In this document: in pieces, positions 22,832 through 44,669 of the stretch
Position numbering within the stretch: position 1 is the first letter of the stretch
How the letters are laid out: the number at the start of each line of letters is the position of its first letter
DNA from: an uncultured Acidobacteriia bacterium
GTDB taxonomy: Bacteria > Acidobacteriota > Terriglobia > Bryobacterales > Bryobacteraceae
Length of the DNA stretch: 48,039 bases
Direction: 5' to 3'
Assembly (NCBI GenBank): GCA_903875575.1
Contig: CAIQWJ010000050.1
Coordinates: 1 to 48,039 of the forward strand
Made by a program: the position numbers and the translations under genes
The notes under the pieces: generated by a model
Database searches by the model: none
What the model saw: the letters and a program-made list of their open reading frames with translations, nothing else
What the model was told of the DNA's origin: nothing

Positions 22832-23932
22832 TTAGCGGGTGCCGCGCAACGACGCCGCGAGCGCAGAGCCGGGATTCAGCGCCACGATGGCGTCCAGTTC
22901 GGCATTGGCTTCTTTGGCAAGCCCAGCTTTGGTGTAGAGAATGGCGAGGAGCAGATGCGAAGGCGGATTGGCGGCCTGCGCCTGGGCAATGCCGCGCGCT
23001 TCTTCTTCCGCGGCAATTTCGAAACGAGGAGACGCTTTGCGCGGCGCGGGCGAAGTGGTCCACGCGCCATTGCGAAGCACGGCGACCTGCCAGACCATGG
23101 GGCGGCCGCGCGGCAGCGCCACTTCCGGAGTCCAGACGGGCGCGTGAATGGTGCCGCTGGTGGCGATTTCCTTCAGGCTGTCGTCGGCAATCGAGACCCG
23201 ATAAGCAGTGGCGCCTTCAGGCGGCGACCAGCGAAATTCGGGGCGATCGGAAAGCACGAAAACTCCGCTCGGAGAAAAGGCTCCAGCTTCCGGCTGTGCG
23301 GGACCAGTGGGCAGGCCGCGTAGCGAATCTTCCTGCCTGGCGGCATCGACGAGGGGCAGAGGGCCATCTGGCAGGTGTCCGGCTTTCAGTGCAGCAGCGA
23401 TCAGTTTCGCGGTACCTGGAGGTGGAGTGGCATCGGCCACGAGTGCACCCGACGCGCTCAGCCGGAAAAAACCACCCGCGTCGCGGAGTTGGGCCGAGGC
23501 GGCGGGTCCGGATTTTCCAGCGCGTTCCACGAGCAAGGCGGAAATTCCAGCCGCCAGGCAGAGTGCCGCGGCAAGCGGAAGCGCCCAGGCGAGGGTACGG
23601 CGGGCGGACGGCGGTGCCGGCATTTGGCGTGGGGAGAGTTGCTCGCGACGAAAGTCCTGGAGATCGGCAACCATCGCCTCGCATGATTCGCAGGTTTGCA
23701 GATGAGCGGCCAGCCGAGCCTGATCGCCCGATGTCAGGCGGCCAGCCACGTAATCGACTGCCTGCTGTTCCGCCAGGTGATCGGCACCCGCCCCCGAGGC
23801 CAGCGCGGACAACAGTTCGGCGCACAATTGGCAGGAATCGATGTGCGCGTGAAAGGCAGGAATCTGCTCCGGAGGGAGGCGCTTCGCCGCGTAGTCCTGC
23901 AACTGCGCGAAGGTGAAATGGTCGCCGTTCAT
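22832..23932 (-). CDS. Anti-sigma-like membrane protein A (two zinc fingers, beta-sandwich, helical repeats)
   Basis: A 366-residue protein. Two zf-HC2-type fingers are seen: His30-xxx-Cys34-xx-Cys37 and His77-xxx-Cys81-xx-Cys84. One membrane segment follows (about 112-134). The outer part has a fibronectin-like beta-sandwich (about 235-310, R-P-E-F-R-W-S-P-P-E-G-A-T-A-Y-R-V-S-I) and a C-terminal helical stretch like one or two TPR units (L-L-L-A-I-L-Y-T-K-A-G-L-A-K-E-A-N-A-E-L). Its ATG overlaps the stop codon of the sigma-like gene by four bases and has its own AGGAG, so the two products are made together. The protein at 27158-28270 has the same layout and similar sequence. Role as anti-sigma factor is inferred from the fingers and the gene order. 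Confidence 0.8.
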   Translation of the reverse strand: MNGDHFTFAQLQDYAAKRLPPEQIPAFHAHIDSCQLCAELLSALASGAGADHLAEQQAVDYVAGRLTSGDQARLAAHLQTCESCEAMVADLQDFRREQLSPRQMPAPPSARRTLAWALPLAAALCLAAGISALLVERAGKSGPAASAQLRDAGGFFRLSASGALVADATPPPGTAKLIAAALKAGHLPDGPLPLVDAARQEDSLRGLPTGPAQPEAGAFSPSGVFVLSDRPEFRWSPPEGATAYRVSIADDSLKEIATSGTIHAPVWTPEVALPRGRPMVWQVAVLRNGAWTTSPAPRKASPRFEIAAEEEARGIAQAQAANPPSHLLLAILYTKAGLAKEANAELDAIVALNPGSALAASLRGTR

Positions 23933-24996
23933 CTGCCTGCTCCTGTGGTGCCGGAATCCGGTGGGATATTAGTGCCGGTCGGGGATTGATCTATAACGGC
24001 CATGCGACGCGTCAACCGCTGCCGCGCGGAGGAGCGCAGGTTGATGACCTGCTGCCTCTCCAATTGCAGGAGAACTGCAATTTCATTGTCCGGAAGTGGC
24101 ACGCGGTTCCAGATGGCCGCCAGCGCCTCTTGTGTCATTTCCAGAGTGGCTGCGAGGGTGGCGAAGGTGGCGATCCGGAGGTCGGCAAGAGCACACATAG
24201 TGGCTTCTCCTGCGTTGGCGGCCCCGGAGCCGAGATTGAGCAACAGAGCGATGCGCTGGTGCAACGGCAACTGGCTGACTTCGCGCCAGAGCCAGGTGAG
24301 GCGATCTTTCAGTTCGGCGGCGTGGGCGAACCGGACCCCGTGGTCAGTCAGAGATTCGGCATGATCTTCCACGACCTCCATGCGGTCCGTGATGCCGAGG
24401 GCGTGTGCCGCTAACGTGGTGACGTCACTCAGTTCAAACCTGGCGGGTGCCGAAGACAGGATTTGACAGATCAGGTCCGGCAGCCGGGTCACCGATGATT
24501 TCGCGTTGAGCAGCTTTGTCTTGAAGCTATCGAGGGTCTCTTCGGAAGCGGCCTCGCCAGACTGTGCCATGCCGGCCAGTCCGCAAAGCCAGACACCATG
24601 TTCGGATTCCACGAAGGTGAAGCGCGCATCCGTGGTGAGTACGTAACGGATGCGATTGCGCAGGCGGGCGCGTTGCGGAGCGCGGGCGGCAAAAAATCGG
24701 TCAGCGGTATTGGATGCAACGGTGGCAGCGTAGTTTGTGAGGTCGCCGATTGGCGGACCGCCATCGGTCTCACGATGGAGACGCACAATGATGGCGGAAA
24801 CGGCATCGGCGCAGACATCTTCAAGATCTTCGGGCCGGATGTTGCGCGCGGAACTGAAACGACGCTTTACTGTGTTTCGAACAACAGGTAAGACCACGGC
24901 GAGGACGAAGGATTCGGCAGCGTCACCTGTGCCGGTACTCGCAGTGCCGGAGGGGGGCACGGGATCGCCGACGGTCGGATTCCGCGCCAATGGCAT
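23929..24996 (-). CDS. Sigma-70-like protein A, atypical, with long central region
   Basis: A 355-residue protein from ATG 24996; the frame is open to 25218 but that part overlaps the divergent gene's leader and looks non-coding. The N-terminal part (about 27-110) resembles sigma region 2 of ECF factors: D-L-E-D-V-C-A-D-A-V-S-A-I-I-V-R-L, then Y-A-A-T-V-A-S-N-T-A-D-R. A block R-L-R-N-R-I-R-Y-V-L-T-T-D-A-R-F follows. The C-terminal part (about 240-340) resembles region 4: Q-L-P-L-H-Q-R-I-A-L-L-L-N-L, later L-A-A-T-L-E-M and S-A-R-Q-R-L-T-R-R-M. The roughly 130 residues between make it nearly twice the usual ECF length. It is paralogous to the protein at 26113-27105. Whether it binds RNA polymerase is untested. 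Confidence 0.7.
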   Translation of the reverse strand: MPLARNPTVGDPVPPSGTASTGTGDAAESFVLAVVLPVVRNTVKRRFSSARNIRPEDLEDVCADAVSAIIVRLHRETDGGPPIGDLTNYAATVASNTADRFFAARAPQRARLRNRIRYVLTTDARFTFVESEHGVWLCGLAGMAQSGEAASEETLDSFKTKLLNAKSSVTRLPDLICQILSSAPARFELSDVTTLAAHALGITDRMEVVEDHAESLTDHGVRFAHAAELKDRLTWLWREVSQLPLHQRIALLLNLGSGAANAGEATMCALADLRIATFATLAATLEMTQEALAAIWNRVPLPDNEIAVLLQLERQQVINLRSSARQRLTRRMAVIDQSPTGTNIPPDSGTTGAGR

Positions 24997-25021
24997 CAAT
25001 CCATGATAAACGACTGGCGCG

Positions 25022-25034
25022 GAAAGAATCTTTC
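25022..25034. promoter_or_regulatory. Palindrome in the divergent promoter region of sigma-like gene A and the PEP-CTERM gene
   Basis: GAAAGA-A-TCTTTC is a perfect 6-bp inverted repeat with one centre base, 26 bases upstream of the sigma-like start (24996) and 83 bases upstream of the PEP-CTERM start (25117). It is well placed to be an operator for either gene. Confidence 0.4.
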
Positions 25035-25116
25035 GAGTCGGACTAATATGCTCCGGGCATGGCGCACCTTGCAGGAAGAAGAGCGCGCAACCAGCCGCTC
25101 TCCGGAGGAAACATCT

Positions 25117-26016
25117 ATGCCGTCCACAGCGCAATTCAAACAAATCGCCCTTAAGTTTGCAGTCACGTTCACATTGGCGTTGCCCGCCTTTGGGGGTGTC
25201 GTCATTCCCCCGTCTCAATGGGGGCCGGGCTCGGGGAATATTCAGGAGAGCATTACCAACTACTCGGGCCCCAGTAGTTGTTATCTCCAGGCAAACGGAA
25301 ACGGCAGCACTTGCGGGCTTAGTATCGGGTCCAACGTCCCACCCCAGAATTTTATTCCGGCGAACGGCGTGGGCACTGCAGCGGCGACTCTCAGTGCGTG
25401 GACGGATGCTAACGGTTCACATATAGTCACGTCCGCGTCCGGATCGGGAAACAGCGAAGAAGACGTTACCGCGTATGCCGACTTCTTCGATACAGCGGTG
25501 AATACCACGTCCAATGCGATTCAGTTTCAGGTCAGCTTTCACCTGGATGCGCAACTCTACGCACTCTCCGATGCCTACGTCTCGCTCAAGGTTCTGGACG
25601 TTCTCGGTTTCAATCAGACTTCCATCTTCAGTCAAAGCATCAATGGCGGAGGTGCAGGCACTTACAATACGATCAACCAGACCATCACGACCCCCCTTTT
25701 TACGATCGCGCCAAATGGTTCTCAGGCGTGGGGAATCATCCTCCAGGCCAACATGTCGGTATGGTCGGGACTCAACATAATATATCCGTCAGGTCTGCCG
25801 CAGGCTTCGATTGACGCCGGCCACACCCTTTCAATGAGCAGCATTTCGGCGTTCGATATGGCAGGGAATGCATTACCGTCGTCCGCACTTTCTTCGGCGA
25901 ACGGCTACACCAACGGCGCGGCCACGCCCGAACCCGCGACTTTCGCTCTGTTCGGCGGAACACTCCTGATTCTGCTGGGCGGCAAGCGGTTGTCGAAGGC
26001 ACGGAAAGGCGCCTGA
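25117..26016 (+). CDS. PEP-CTERM sorted exported protein
   Basis: A 299-residue secreted protein. ATG 25117 is certain: GGAGGA stands seven bases ahead. A signal peptide (about residues 1-28, ending L-P-A-F-G-G) is followed by about 240 residues rich in Asn, Ser, Thr, Gly and Ala, predicted beta-structured, with one Cys pair early (C-Y-L-Q, T-C-G-L). The C-terminal sorting signal begins at residue 270: T-P-E-P-A-T-F-A, a hydrophobic stretch (L-F-G-G-T-L-L-I-L-L-G-G), then basic K-R-L-S-K-A-R-K. Exosortase systems recognise such tails and process the protein for the cell surface or matrix. No exosortase gene is in the window. The gene stands between two sigma/anti-sigma-like pairs. Confidence 0.9.
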   Translation: MPSTAQFKQIALKFAVTFTLALPAFGGVVIPPSQWGPGSGNIQESITNYSGPSSCYLQANGNGSTCGLSIGSNVPPQNFIPANGVGTAAATLSAWTDANGSHIVTSASGSGNSEEDVTAYADFFDTAVNTTSNAIQFQVSFHLDAQLYALSDAYVSLKVLDVLGFNQTSIFSQSINGGGAGTYNTINQTITTPLFTIAPNGSQAWGIILQANMSVWSGLNIIYPSGLPQASIDAGHTLSMSSISAFDMAGNALPSSALSSANGYTNGAATPEPATFALFGGTLLILLGGKRLSKARKGA

Positions 26017-26076
26017 ATGCATAGTGCCGTGGAAAGGAGGGCGGAGATCCGTTGATCGGTTAGAATTGTATGTGCC

Positions 26077-26096
26077 ACGCCCATAGTTGAGGGCGT
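26077..26096. repeat. Small inverted repeat before sigma-like gene B
   Basis: ACGCCC (26077-26082) and GGGCGT (26091-26096) form a 6-bp stem with an 8-base loop, 16 bases upstream of the start at 26113. It lies between the PEP-CTERM gene and sigma-like gene B. No T-run follows, so it may be a leader hairpin rather than a terminator. Confidence 0.35.
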
Positions 26097-26112
26097 CCCG
26101 CATTCGCCGAGG

Positions 26113-27105
26113 ATGGATTCCCTGAACGCCGACGAGATCCTCGCCAAGTACCTGGCCGAGACCGATGATACTGCCGCCGAGCTCCTTCTTCACACGCTGA
26201 TTGCGGAGACGGCGGCCCCATTTGTCCGCATGGTGGTTTCCTCGAATCTCAGAGGACCTCATCAGGCGGAAGCCAGTGACGCATCACAGGAAGTTCTGCT
26301 GGATCTGACCTGTCGGCTCCGCAGGCTGCGGGAAGTTCAGGCCGGGGGCCAGAGCGAAGATTCCCTGATTCGCAATTTCCAGGCCTACGTAGCCTCGGCC
26401 GCGCGACGGGCGGCGGGTTTTGTACTGCGACGGAATAATCCGGAGCGCTACCGACTGCGAAACCGCATCCGTTACTCGCTAAAGACAAACCCGCAGTTCG
26501 CGCTCACAGAGGATTCGCAGGGGCGGCGACTGGCGGAACTGAGCAGTAGCCGATCGGGTGCAGCCACCATGACCCTGAAGGATTTGATGGCCATGCCCGT
26601 GCCGCAGGGTGCTTCCGGTATGAATTTGCGGGTTCTGATCGAAAGGGTACTGGTACCTTTGAAGGCTCCGGTATTGGTGGACGACCTTTCCGATTACATT
26701 GGCACGGCGCTGGGCGGATATGCCCGCGAGGAGGCCTTTGAAAGCGCGGCGAACGTGGCTTCCTCCAATCTGTCGGAGCAGATGGACCAACGGGCGTGGC
26801 TGGCGCATCTCTGGACGGAAATCGTGCAACTGCCTCGTAATCAAAAGGTTGCGCTGCTGTTAAACCTCCGGGATCAGATTGGTGATCCGGCACTTCGGCT
26901 TTTGCCTTCGCTGGGAATCGCCTCGATTCGGCAGATTGCGATGGCCCTCGAAATGGAACCGGAAGCCCTGGCCGGGCTTTGGCGCGACCTGCCCGTGGAT
27001 GATCTGAAGATCTCTGAACTCCTTTCTTTGACCCGGCAACAGATCGCGAATCTGCGGAAATCCGCCCGGGATCGACTGATTCGGCGCATGGGAGTTCGCC
27101 GGTGA
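26113..27105 (+). CDS. Sigma-70-like protein B, atypical, paralogue of A
   Basis: A 330-residue protein. Region-2-like part: about 25-110, with D-A-S-Q-E-V-L-L-D-L-T-C-R-L and Y-V-A-S-A-A-R-R-A-A. The shared block R-L-R-N-R-I-R-Y-S-L-K-T-N-P-Q-F-A matches protein A almost residue for residue. The C-terminal part Q-L-P-R-N-Q-K-V-A-L-L-L-N-L, then L-E-M-E-P-E-A-L-A-G-L-W, L-T-R-Q-Q-I-A-N-L-R-K-S-A-R and D-R-L-I-R-R-M also aligns with A throughout. Start ATG 26113 has only GAGG directly before it, so its translation signal is weak. Followed 52 bases later by anti-sigma-like gene B. In ordinary ECF proteins region 2 and region 4 are joined by a short linker; here a long central section is kept in both copies. 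Confidence 0.72.
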   Translation: MDSLNADEILAKYLAETDDTAAELLLHTLIAETAAPFVRMVVSSNLRGPHQAEASDASQEVLLDLTCRLRRLREVQAGGQSEDSLIRNFQAYVASAARRAAGFVLRRNNPERYRLRNRIRYSLKTNPQFALTEDSQGRRLAELSSSRSGAATMTLKDLMAMPVPQGASGMNLRVLIERVLVPLKAPVLVDDLSDYIGTALGGYAREEAFESAANVASSNLSEQMDQRAWLAHLWTEIVQLPRNQKVALLLNLRDQIGDPALRLLPSLGIASIRQIAMALEMEPEALAGLWRDLPVDDLKISELLSLTRQQIANLRKSARDRLIRRMGVRR

Positions 27106-27157
27106 TACAACGAGCGGTAATATTGAGAGAATTTGTGCGCTCAACAGGTATAGAAAG

Positions 27158-28270
27158 ATGAAAGAGCACCTTACATCTCAACAAGTGACCGAGTGGCGGT
27201 CAGGCGTTACAGGCGCGGAAGATATTTTGCGTCTGGACGATCACCTGGCCAGTTGCCCGGATTGTCGCGCGTTGGTTGTGGGTGGCACGGATTCCCCGGA
27301 CATCAACTCCGCGATTCGGCATCTGCGGAGCGAGTTCTCGTCCGAACACCTGACTGACGCGCAGATGGACGATTACGCGGCATCCCGGCCTTTGCCGGCT
27401 GACGTGATGCAGCACCTGGATCAGTGTGAAGAATGCCGGGCGGACGCTGCGGATCTGCGTAAGTTTGCCAGCGAAGAACCGCCCGCGGCGACCACGCACA
27501 AAGTGGTCCCGATACGCAGTGGGTCGCCGGTATGGCTGCGGTCGCTGGCCGCCGCGGTAGCTGTGGCCGCGCTGGGACTTGCCGTACGGTTTGCGCTGGA
27601 TAAGAAGGTGGACCCGGCGGGAGATAAGGCCCCTGTCGCGTCGCTTGGCCAGTCGCCGGAGGAAGTTGCTCTCAACATACCGGTGCAGTACCGCGACGAG
27701 GTGAAGGCGGCCATGTACTCCGGGGGACTCCACATTCCGGAAGCGATTGCCGGCATGGAGGCCGGGCCGATTCAACTGCGATCGACTACTGACGTGAAGC
27801 CTTCAGCTCTGCACGTGATTTCCCCGCAGGCGACCGCCGTGGTGGAAGACACGCCGGTTTTCCGCTGGACGTCCGTGGATGGTGCCAGTTATACGATTTC
27901 GATCTACGACGACCAGTTTCACGCGATGGAAAGCGCCAGCGGATTGAAGGTCACAGAGTGGCGTCCCGATAAGCCGTTGCGACGCGGTGCGGTGTATCGC
28001 TGGGAAGTCCGCGCGGTGAAGGGGAAGCACGCAGATCTGGCACCCGCACCCACAGAGCCGGAAGCTCGATTCAGCGTTCTCGGTGTGGCGGTAACACAGC
28101 GACTGGCGGAAGCGCGTACGGCCATGACTCATGCGCCGCTGGCCATGGGAATTCTCTATGCGGATGCCGGTGCGCTGGATGATGCGAAGCGCGAACTGGC
28201 GGATGCTGTAGCGACGAACGACCTGAATCAGAAGGGTCTCGCGGAACGACTGCTGGCGAAGCTGAAGTAG
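27158..28270 (+). CDS. Anti-sigma-like membrane protein B, paralogue of A
   Basis: A 370-residue protein with the same plan as the product of 22832-23932. Fingers are His29-xxx-Cys33-xx-Cys36 and His86-xxx-Cys90-xx-Cys93. A membrane segment spans about 126-146. The outer beta-sandwich (about 222-300) opens D-T-P-V-F-R-W-T-S-V-D-G-A-S-Y-T-I-S-I, matching D-R-P-E-F-R-W-S-P-P-E-G-A-T-A-Y-R-V-S-I of protein A. The C-terminal helical stretch has L-A-M-G-I-L-Y-A-D-A-G-A-L-D-D-A-K-R-E-L. The fingers would hold the sigma-like partner on the cytoplasmic side and the outer domain could sense an envelope signal; both points are inference from the layout. Confidence 0.8.
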   Translation: MKEHLTSQQVTEWRSGVTGAEDILRLDDHLASCPDCRALVVGGTDSPDINSAIRHLRSEFSSEHLTDAQMDDYAASRPLPADVMQHLDQCEECRADAADLRKFASEEPPAATTHKVVPIRSGSPVWLRSLAAAVAVAALGLAVRFALDKKVDPAGDKAPVASLGQSPEEVALNIPVQYRDEVKAAMYSGGLHIPEAIAGMEAGPIQLRSTTDVKPSALHVISPQATAVVEDTPVFRWTSVDGASYTISIYDDQFHAMESASGLKVTEWRPDKPLRRGAVYRWEVRAVKGKHADLAPAPTEPEARFSVLGVAVTQRLAEARTAMTHAPLAMGILYADAGALDDAKRELADAVATNDLNQKGLAERLLAKLK

Positions 28271-28304: not shown

Positions 28305-28688
28305 CTAAGCTGCGTGGGTACGGACCCACTCGGTTTCCCACTTGCGAATCGCGGCGTCATACTCTTCCATCTCGCGCTGCGTGATCGTCAGGTATTCCTT
28401 GTCCAGATCTTCGCCGTTTTCCGTGACCTGACGTAGTTTGCACGCGGCCATGCGCGAACACCAGGTGTCACTGATCAGCCGGCCTGTACGCTTTGAGAAT
28501 TCGCGGATGGCGGGATGCGAAAGCACGACCACCTTCTGTGCCTTTTCGTCGCCGCTTTCAATCACAAAGCAGACATCCACCGAATCGCTGTGGCGAATCG
28601 AGATGCCCGTCTGCAAATACTTGAAGCGGGCGTGCCAGGTGCGGCCAAACGGGTCCGGGCCCAGTTGGAAATCGCGGAAGTTTTCCAT
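28305..28688 (-). CDS. Small conserved hypothetical protein
   Basis: A 127-residue soluble protein of unknown function. ATG 28688 is preferred; the frame is open to 28769, but the added 27 residues are very basic and overlap the ackA promoter region. The N-terminal half is predicted beta-rich (F-Q-L-G-P-D-P-F-G-R-T-W-H-A-R-F-K-Y-L, S-I-R-H-S-D-S-V-D-V-C-F-V-I). The second half is helical, with two Cys residues (T-W-C-S-R and A-A-C-K-L) and a charged C-terminus. No signal peptide, membrane segment or known motif is seen. Confidence 0.6.
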   Translation of the reverse strand: MENFRDFQLGPDPFGRTWHARFKYLQTGISIRHSDSVDVCFVIESGDEKAQKVVVLSHPAIREFSKRTGRLISDTWCSRMAACKLRQVTENGEDLDKEYLTITQREMEEYDAAIRKWETEWVRTHAA

Positions 28689-28782
28689 CACATTTATTTT
28701 AGCGTGCGCCCTTTTCCGGTGACGCTTCTTCGCGTCACCATACGAGCTCGCCCGTGCCAGAATTGGCATAGCTCTTTACGTC

Positions 28783-43814: not shown

Positions 43815-44669
43815 TCACGTGCGGCGGCGAAGCATAACCAACAGCCCCATCCCCACCATACCGAACGTCGCGGGCTCCGGTGTGCTCGACGAACTGCTGT
43901 CTCCGTAGATCCGCACTCCTATCGTTTGGTCCTGCAAACCAAGACTCCTGAGTGTGGAGGTGAAATTCCCGTTCGTTTCCGAATTCGCGTTGCGGTAATA
44001 GCCGTTAAATACAGCTGCCCCCACAGTTGGCGCCACTCCGGATTCGATCACGGATGTGAGCGCGTTGGCGCTGCTGTAGTTGGTGCCGTCCGTTGTGCCC
44101 TGTACGTTAAATGTCAGTCCGATCGTCGTACCGGATATCGCCAGCGGGGTCGACAGGGTGACGGTCGACAGATAGTAAAGGACACCGGAGTTGAAGCTTC
44201 CTGTGGCCGTGATCGTGTAGGTACCCAGTAAACTGCCGAAGGCCGGAGTGGTGGAGTTTACGGTACCTGTGTTCACATTGCCCCAGACATCCAGATTTAC
44301 CTCCAGCCCTGTATAATTCGTTCCCGTAAGATTGGCTGCCGCGAAATCAAAGCCGGAGATTTTGGTTGTCCCGGCCGTAAGGATGTAACCATCACCCATG
44401 AACGTGTTTGGATTCGATCCCGTCACGTTCACAGCTGACCCGGCTGCCAGGTTTTGTTGAGCGGTGAGATTGTCAAAGACTACGGAGCCCGCACGCGCGG
44501 TGGAGGCGTGCGCGAAGCACATCGGAGAAACCGAGGCGAATATTGGGAAAAGCTTACGAATGGATGTTGTTGTTACGTAACGAGCGGTGAGATGTTTCAG
44601 TATCCGCCCTCCCCGGGCGTTGGTTGGCAGTAGCACGCCTTCGGTGAGGACCGCCGAAACGAGGATCAT
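43815..44669 (-). CDS. PEP-CTERM sorted exported protein (second), start uncertain
   Basis: The frame encodes up to 284 residues. The C-terminal tail is a clear PEP-CTERM signal: S-S-S-T-P-E-P-A-T-F-G-M-V-G-M-G-L-L-V-M-L-R-R-R-T. The body is rich in Thr, Asn, Gly and Ser and predicted beta. A signal-peptide-like stretch I-R-K-L-F-P-I-F-A-S-V-S-P-M-C-F-A-H-A lies at about 37-55, but no ATG, GTG or TTG stands just before it. The nearest in-frame starts are GTG 44636 and ATG 44669, far upstream and without ribosome-binding sites. A rare start codon (ATT) or a lost start is possible. Two palindromes lie in or before the 5' part. Confidence 0.75.
   Translation of the reverse strand: MILVSAVLTEGVLLPTNARGGRILKHLTARYVTTTSIRKLFPIFASVSPMCFAHASTARAGSVVFDNLTAQQNLAAGSAVNVTGSNPNTFMGDGYILTAGTTKISGFDFAAANLTGTNYTGLEVNLDVWGNVNTGTVNSTTPAFGSLLGTYTITATGSFNSGVLYYLSTVTLSTPLAISGTTIGLTFNVQGTTDGTNYSSANALTSVIESGVAPTVGAAVFNGYYRNANSETNGNFTSTLRSLGLQDQTIGVRIYGDSSSSSTPEPATFGMVGMGLLVMLRRRT
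44572..44581. promoter_or_regulatory. GTTACGTAAC palindrome near the 5' end of the second PEP-CTERM gene
   Basis: A perfect 10-bp palindrome. It shares the ACGTAA core with the larger palindrome at 44688-44702, about 110 bases away. It lies before the signal-peptide segment, so if translation starts after it the site would be in the promoter region. Confidence 0.35.

Follow-up and report, generated by a model that had tools for sequence, protein, structure and literature searches.

Two sigma-like/anti-sigma-like gene pairs of separate descent in an acidobacterial genome and the recurrence of TPR-CHAT protease genes beside their relatives

The stretch analysed here (the window, 48,039 bases) is the entire contig C50 of the genome of an uncultured Acidobacteriia bacterium (GCA_903875575.1, referred to as G000; 5.98 Mb in 110 contigs), and its span 22832-28270 holds five genes: asfA, sigA, a PEP-CTERM-like gene, sigB and asfB (Table 1). 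This layout confirms the arrangement put forward in a preliminary description made from the DNA letters, i.e. two sigma-like/anti-sigma-like pairs that diverge around a single PEP-CTERM-like gene. The two pairs are paralogous and belong to separate lineages in which sigma-like and anti-sigma-like proteins have diverged together, and genes for TPR-CHAT proteins stand beside their homologues far more often than expected by chance. On balance, and with moderate confidence, we read the pairs as envelope-signal switches set free through proteolysis that CHAT proteases probably carry out in trans, with the PEP-CTERM-like gene as a probably incidental neighbour.

Neither sigA nor sigB has a Pfam match at E ≤ 1, and NCBIfam gives a sub-threshold match of sigA to sigma70-ECF (TIGR02937; E 1.3e-4, 21.7 bits against a cut-off of 42.9) and none of sigB. 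At the level of their family, represented by an alignment of 35 members (A6) that was used for the profile and for domain mapping, the sigma-2 domain of extracytoplasmic function (ECF) sigma factors is present: Sigma70_r2 matches 19 of the 35 members at E ≤ 0.1 (best 3.6e-7), and the family profile matches the ECF sigma structure 9isn over sigma-2 (E 0.0017). Residues Q309, N313, R315 and A318 (sigB numbering) are invariant in all 35 members, and the family carries a DxxDV..EV motif that we take to resemble sigma region 2. The AlphaFold model of sigB (pLDDT 89.9) has a pTM of 0.61, so that the placement of its domains is loose; when it was compared with PDB structures by Foldseek, the 18 best of 166 matches were sigma factors, classed as such from titles, chain letters and lengths, with a best E of 8e-3. 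About 90 residues, including a hairpin and a winged-helix-like segment, separate the sigma-2 and sigma-4-like parts; as this linker is not short, in the manner of ECF sigma factors, we call the proteins ECF-like. The five best of 20 PDB profile matches of the inserted segment are RNA polymerase delta (E 0.0036-0.0076), the resemblance covering ∼36 residues of the N-terminal part of delta (E 0.0036), although here the segment sits inside a sigma factor, unlike in the delta subunit. As the insert has no Pfam match of any strength across the 35 members, and none of them matches HARE-HTH (which we take to be the name of the delta N-terminal domain), it is described only tentatively as a putative delta-like winged helix. 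If true, a sigma factor with such an insert would be an unusual way to build RNA polymerase specificity.

The zf-HC2 matches of the two partners (asfA E 3.9e-9, asfB 5e-8, two stretches each) are the sole Pfam matches over cut-off among the four regulators. Each partner also has one hydrophobic segment, which in asfA lies near residues 117-135 (hydropathy 2.31), in agreement with the two HxxxCxxC fingers and membrane segment initially ascribed to both. All 33 aligned anti-sigmas retain the ligands of the first finger and 27 of the 33 those of the second, and by our own count 32 of 33 have a 19-residue stretch of hydropathy ≥ 1.6. An HxxxCxxC finger followed by a single predicted membrane helix is the layout of zf-HC2 (ZAS) anti-sigma factors, and the anti-sigma family profile matches the structures of ChrR (7e-5) and RsiW (0.022). 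The AlphaFold model of asfB (pLDDT 85.9, pTM 0.59) contains finger helices, a membrane helix, an FN3-like sandwich and a TPR-like tail. The best Foldseek match of the sandwich is the C-terminal domain of MtxA (4.4e-5), followed by an FN3 module (5.8e-4), and the family profile matches TPR proteins weakly over the C-terminal helices (E 0.06-0.23). Of the beta-sandwich and helical tail proposed for both partners, those of asfB are thus seen in its model, whereas those of asfA follow from the sequence alignment of its regions to asfB; asfA has in addition a TPR_19 match below cut-off (E 0.0015). The sigma-like and anti-sigma-like identities from which the preliminary description set out are supported.

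Protein searches with sigB and with sigA each matched 11 of 61 genomes, the same 11. Profile searches matched 40 of 399 genomes of the class at E ≤ 1e-3 (the weaker matches among them probably being ordinary sigma factors), 34 of 237 genomes of the taxonomic family at E ≤ 1e-10 and 27 of 396 genomes of a phylum sample at E ≤ 1e-8, and these presence counts are lower bounds, with 5 to 8 candidates scored per genome; the sigma family is therefore patchy yet phylum-wide. Thirteen places in 11 further genomes were taken from the class search, with 22 weak genomes (E 1.8e-6 to 1e-3) left out; all but one weak genome (G241) of the family search were examined; and 23 places in 18 genomes were taken from the phylum search, with 6 weak genomes (E 3e-10 to 9e-9) left out. 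Two sets of loci are used in the following. The first has 45 members, all from the window's class: besides the window itself there are 44 stretches, drawn from 37 other genomes, and 39 of these 45 loci belong to the window's family. The second consists of 23 loci in 18 genomes of other classes. As is the case for ECF sigma factors, the sigma-like gene adjoins a cognate anti-sigma gene. At the window, sigA and asfA overlap by 4 nt and sigB is separated from asfB by 52 nt; an anti-sigma lies within 400 bp of 39 of 47 sigma matches in the class set, and within 500 bp at 16 of the 23 loci of other classes. The eight class-set matches that stand alone include four whose contig stops where a partner would be expected (L078, L125, L127, L128), two partial copies (L077 and the second copy in L112), one weak match (L079) and L070, which is without a partner. 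Distances between sigma proteins correlate with those between anti-sigmas (Mantel r 0.77, a value reached in 0 of 2000 permutations; r is 0.69 once two extreme rows are removed) among the 31 of the 35 sigma proteins whose anti-sigma is in the set, which are also the rows of the trees.

Within each class the window's proteins are paralogous from end to end, as had been claimed: sigA and sigB are identical in 108 of 327 columns (33%, E 1e-36) and asfA and asfB in 101 of 381 (27%, E 7e-24). The RLRNRIRY block singled out earlier is identical in sigA and sigB, but varies across the wider family. Pair B clusters with pairs of G012, G006 and G008 at a support of 100/100 in both the sigma and anti-sigma trees, whereas pair A clusters with L024, L068 and L122 at 100/98 and 99/97, and a forced A+B clade is rejected by the approximately unbiased (AU) test for both the sigma (p 3.8e-6) and the anti-sigma (p 1.1e-5) proteins. 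One A-type and one B-type pair occur together in G012, on different contigs. The great age initially attributed to the two pairs is supported; the companion claim of an old duplication around the surface protein is contradicted by the different clades, the AU tests and the separate contigs in G012, and a local tandem duplication was rejected on the placement of A and B in both trees. Among the 45 first-set loci the window alone has two complete pairs. A conserved chromosomal place of the pairs was likewise rejected, as the downstream ack-lam-orf30648 flank is kept in G012, G006 and G008 with no pair in the 10-13 kb before ack. The layout therefore looks like the juxtaposition of two old, separately inherited switches. 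The sole other first-set stretch with two sigma matches is L112:280-9872 (G498 contig C545), where the contig holds, 6.4 kb from a complete pair, an incomplete second copy of sigma.

TPR-CHAT genes recur beside these pairs. In the first set, on which the idea was formed, they lie within 6 kb at 16 of 45 loci. The gene pieces number 18, with a remnant in L026 and two L117 fragments among them, where the density of 260 CHAT genes in 245.7 Mb of 36 of the 38 genomes (G127 and G122 left out) would predict 0.41; this corresponds to a Poisson P of 1e-23, or 7e-19 when 15 pieces are counted. In the second set they lie within 6 kb at 12 of 23 loci, where 236 genes in 108 Mb would give 0.51 by chance (P 4e-13); at 10 of the 12 the CHAT open reading frame (ORF) exceeds 500 aa, the others being a 67-aa fragment and a 245-aa piece 5.5 kb away. 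With nearby CHAT genes called by our own hidden Markov model and their density by Pfam, the linkage exceeds chance by ∼20- to 45-fold in these two sets, which do not overlap. Pfam scans of seven linked proteins of the first set returned CHAT in all seven at 3e-56 or better and TPRs in six, and the linked CHAT domains match chains 8d9f-h (‘CHAT domain protein’), which we take to be Craspase, at E 9e-4. By our own rules, as opposed to curated tools, 19 of 25 linked CHAT ORFs over 500 aa from both sets have a signal-peptide-like start and 23 of 25 have the His and Cys motifs. On the sigma tree the presence of CHAT, found in 11 of 31 rows, changes at least nine times, and the linkage is therefore not one inherited cluster.

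The window's own genome has eight CHAT matches, six of which were examined. The CHAT genes on contigs C29 and C83 are 66-67% identical over the last 340 residues to the two CHAT proteins on either side of the G012 B pair, with which they form groups in a quick tree at an SH-aLRT of 100. That locus (L016:7204-13986, contig C46) is the nearest relative of pair B and carries CHAT genes on both sides. Directly beside five of the examined G000 CHAT genes there was no match to the sigma or anti-sigma families, while a weak anti-sigma-like ORF lies 6.6 kb from that on C83; the simplest reading is that the window's switches and their proteases have drifted apart on the chromosome. The remaining gene, on contig C10 (L173:4001-8753), follows two genes of the same strand, one for an ECF sigma of canonical type (both Sigma70_r2 and r4_2 over cut-off) and one for a membrane-type protein with HxxxCxxC, and the link to CHAT is therefore wider than the sigma family studied here.

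In our reading, two independent transmembrane gene-expression switches would stand side by side by chance. In each, an ECF-like sigma factor with sigma-2, a delta-like winged helix and sigma-4 would be bound and held inactive by its co-inherited single-pass anti-sigma, whose N-terminal zinc fingers would lie in the cytoplasm and whose FN3/TPR-like part would lie outside. An envelope signal would lead to cleavage of the outer part, and the usual intramembrane and cytoplasmic steps would then free the sigma factor. The cutting protease would probably be an exported, caspase-like TPR-CHAT protein, encoded beside the pairs in many relatives and at other loci in G000, and the PEP-CTERM-like gene would be a chance neighbour or at most one member of the regulon. 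We regard as rather doubtful the stronger proposal of a phylum-wide sigma family, built with a winged helix like that of RNA polymerase delta, for which exported CHAT proteases would be dedicated site-1 proteases and in which the TPRs would sense the envelope signal and the FN3/TPR ectodomain would be cut to free the sigma factor, the window's switches being a case where the proteases lie elsewhere. To our knowledge few substrates of CHAT-domain proteases are known, and the ∼20- to 45-fold link to the pairs points to one concrete candidate and to a non-CRISPR route of transmembrane signalling that can be put to the test.

Several observations weigh against this reading. Sigma-4 is weak by sequence, with Sigma70_r4_2 in just 4 of 35 members at E ≤ 0.1 (best 0.022), a PDB profile search with the sigma-4-like region matched no sigma factor, and none of the Foldseek matches of sigB passes 1e-3. 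There is no CHAT gene within 6 kb of the window's pairs, nor at 29 of 45 and 11 of 23 loci overall (some cut by contig ends), and in the A and B clades CHAT is found at one of four loci each (L024 and L016, respectively). CHAT orientations are varied and often convergent, so that the genes do not as a rule share an operon. Related loci count as independent in the Poisson values, and the correlation between sigma and CHAT trees (r 0.50, 6/5000, 22 loci) is confounded by species relatedness. As CHAT-domain genes are numerous, with between 1 and 65 in each of the 54 pair-carrying genomes that were counted (65 matches in G598), action in trans is hard to falsify by genomics. The main rival is accordingly one in which classical proteases act alone: general site-1 and site-2 proteases would release the sigma factor, and nearby CHAT genes would be regulon members or bystanders. 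RseA and RsiW are indeed cut by general envelope proteases, as stated in part of PMC10028731, CHAT proteins could also be effectors, and the window together with over half of the 68 loci has no CHAT gene within 6 kb; yet the strength of the linkage in two sets, and an already known fusion of an anti-sigma to a CHAT-annotated protein (the N-terminus of 8rot/8rw5 is common with DdvA), speak against this rival, and we hold proteolysis without CHAT to be possible but unlikely. We consider it most likely that an exported CHAT protease cuts the FN3/TPR ectodomain; precedents for a dedicated protease that cleaves a sigma inhibitor are Csx29/Csx30/CASP-sigma and CalpL/CalpT/CalpS. It is very improbable that sigA and sigB are no longer sigma factors but bind the anti-sigmas as adaptors or decoys. 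Their strong divergence from Pfam models, the inserted linker segment and the expanded sigma-4 would fit such a role, but the four invariant residues and the DxxDV..EV motif in the family, and a sigB model that matches sigma factors best, would not be anticipated of it.

A further alternative, in line with the suggestion of the preliminary description that the surface protein is target, ligand or reporter of both switches, would join the two pairs and the PEP-CTERM-like gene in one unit. The gene is the only one between sigA and sigB, the latter following on the same strand after 96 nt, and a few other pairs also have PEP-CTERM-like genes nearby (L024, L069, L119 and L124 within 6 kb, L072 slightly beyond). 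As to the label, the TPEPATF motif, hydrophobic stretch and basic end are visible, but the sorting signal misses the curated cut-offs of both Pfam (15.4 against 20.7 bits, E 0.02) and NCBIfam (13.2 against 16, E 0.13); G000 does encode an exosortase (PF09721, E 7e-72). With calls near the pairs made by one fixed rule of our own that is looser than Pfam, a PEP-CTERM-like gene lies within 6 kb at 5 of the 45 first-set loci, window included, and at 1 of the 23 loci of other classes. The five genes exceed the 1.07 predicted from the strict Pfam density (683 in 245.7 Mb, 36 genomes; P 0.005). The same loose rule, however, finds four in 328 kb of control stretches (a small, non-random sample, in part chosen for CHAT genes) and so predicts 4.7 by chance, and therefore no enrichment can be claimed. 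The expectation that the gene would be kept beside homologous pairs was accordingly not upheld, and PEP-CTERM was rejected as a conserved partner, with the reservation that attaches to this control. A direct PEP-CTERM-like neighbour is confined to the window and L124, tblastn with the PEP protein of the window gave no match at any of the 11 relative loci examined first, in G002 and G011 its homologues and the pairs are on separate contigs, and a conserved -10-like octamer of its own precedes sigB in the intergenic stretch. The single-unit model appears very improbable, and the role of the surface protein in both switches finds no backing in a chance-level linkage and homologues located away from the pairs; the gene is probably an incidental neighbour. 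As CHAT genes recur beside the relatives and the surface protein is rare there, the protease is the more likely trigger.

In kind, the pairs are ordinary, i.e. an ECF-like sigma with a zinc-finger anti-sigma, and they resemble the ChrR, RsiW and RsrA type of ECF sigma with zf-HC2 (ZAS) anti-sigma in their sigma-2 and sigma-4-like parts and in the adjacent HxxxCxxC anti-sigma. Their build, by comparison, is unusual in the candidate delta-like helix insert, the expanded sigma-4, the tandem fingers and the FN3-like and TPR-like outer part, and so is the phylum-wide link to a caspase-like protease. The nearest parallel to that link is DdvS/DdvA (PDB 8rlz, 8rot, 8rw5), where the anti-sigma is likewise linked to a CHAT-annotated protein: 8rot, a chain of 991 aa, has its N-terminus in common with DdvA, and the window-family profile spans its finger and hydrophobic part. 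There the two form one chain, whereas in the window family they are separate genes, with no CHAT gene at the window locus. DdvA comes from Myxococcus xanthus, and its inactivating signal is given as unknown in the accessible part of PMC4374960. CASP/Craspase (type III-E CRISPR; Csx29, Csx30, CASP-sigma) also combines a TPR-CHAT protease, a sigma inhibitor and an ECF sigma, in that Csx29 cuts Csx30, an inhibitor of an ECF sigma, but it is RNA-guided and its inhibitor, Csx30, is another protein (PMC10028731, in part). ECF54 has CHAT, carboxypeptidase and subtilase genes in its genetic context and is described, in the accessible text of PMC8999054, without an anti-sigma factor, whereas the window family has one and differs from ECF54 in this respect; an ECF group number for the family may exist. 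In CalpL/CalpT/CalpS a dedicated protease likewise cuts an anti-sigma to free an ECF sigma, CalpL cleaving CalpT, although CalpL is a Lon-family protease triggered by cyclic oligoadenylate (part of PMC11417357), unlike the CHAT model proposed here. Among the open-literature papers listed, the titles and abstract openings described neither the sigma family nor an anti-sigma cut by an exported CHAT protease nor a linkage of PEP-CTERM genes to such pairs, and the Solibacter genome paper, in the accessible part of PMC3174227, lists ECF paralogues and has nothing on the paired arrangement.

Table 1. Features of the two pairs and the gene between them, in window positions
Feature	Position	Strand	Remarks
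asfA	22832..23932	-	anti-sigma-like A, 366 aa
sigA	23929..24996	-	ECF-like sigma factor A, 355 aa
sigA sigma-4-like part	23995..24333	-	mapped from family alignment
sigA inserted segment, RNA polymerase delta winged helix-like (tentative)	24322..24519	-	alignment mapping; family profile to RNA polymerase delta, E 0.0036
sigA sigma-2 part	24622..24996	-	columns mapped from family alignment
PEP-CTERM-like surface protein gene	25117..26016	+	299 aa
TAGAATTG, -10-like octamer	26061..26068	+	∼50 nt before sigB; kept in 4/4 B-clade members
sigB	26113..27105	+	ECF-like sigma factor B, 330 aa
sigB sigma-2 part	26113..26496	+	family profile to 9isn, E 0.0017; Sigma70_r2 in 19/35
sigB inserted winged-helix-like segment	26590..26778	+	RNA polymerase delta, E 0.0036-0.0076
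sigB sigma-4-like part	26767..27096	+	model; family alignment
asfB	27158..28270	+	anti-sigma-like B, 370 aa
asfB first HxxxCxxC finger	27167..27268	+	ligands in 33/33
asfB second HxxxCxxC finger	27347..27436	+	ligands in 27/33
asfB predicted membrane helix, residues 127-148	27536..27601	+	model and hydropathy
asfB FN3-like beta-sandwich, residues 220-307	27815..28078	+	model and Foldseek
asfB C-terminal TPR-like helices, residues 310-369	28085..28264	+	model helices; weak TPR profile matches

Two gene starts in Table 1 deserve comment. The 429-aa ORF of sigA, which runs into the PEP-CTERM-like gene, is probably too long, given the in-frame ATG at 24996, and the PEP-CTERM-like gene probably starts at 25117 rather than 25003, since GGAGG stands before the ATG at 25117. 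Upstream of sigA, sigB and the PEP-CTERM-like gene, inspection by eye and one hexamer count revealed no common motif; a shared ECF promoter was rejected, as the sole conserved motif, TAGAATTG, is limited to the B clade and looks like a housekeeping -10. The GC content at third codon positions of the five genes (0.65-0.68) is at the low end of that of six neighbours (0.65-0.79), which is not striking and led us to reject a foreign origin by composition. None of the four regulators matched a PADLOC model at E ≤ 0.001, and a known defence system was on that ground rejected for them.

A number of observations at the relatives' loci may be added. The pair copies at L025:8329-9431 (G009) and L026:8634-9427 (G010) are broken, with sigma spread over two frames in one and a stop codon and fragments in the other, and still adjoin a CHAT gene or CHAT remnant; the sigma gene of L214 is split too. 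In G007 and G002 a 249-aa gene, presumably GntR-like, directly precedes sigma (L020:8008-8757 and L021:9130-9879). A DUF1800/DUF1501 pair adjoins three loci (L024:819-5679, L068:3802-7732 and L071:6391-10649), two of which also have CHAT; Pfam covers DUF1501 of L068 and DUF1800 of L024, and the other calls rest on clustering. In L024, L119 and L124 the PEP-CTERM-like gene adjoins the CHAT gene, and at L177:7689-11038 (G000 contig C69) a PEP-CTERM-like gene is found directly upstream of CHAT on the same strand, as in L119 and L124; the link between CHAT and PEP-CTERM at L177, L119 and L124 may deserve a test of its own. Elsewhere in the window, a second PEP-CTERM gene, over the Pfam cut-off (22.7 bits), lies on the minus strand at 43815-44669, 15.5 kb from the pairs. 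Finally, asfB is followed directly by a 154-aa gene without a Pfam match (28305-28769, minus strand), a homologue of which in G008 is 82% identical and lies ∼9 kb from ack.

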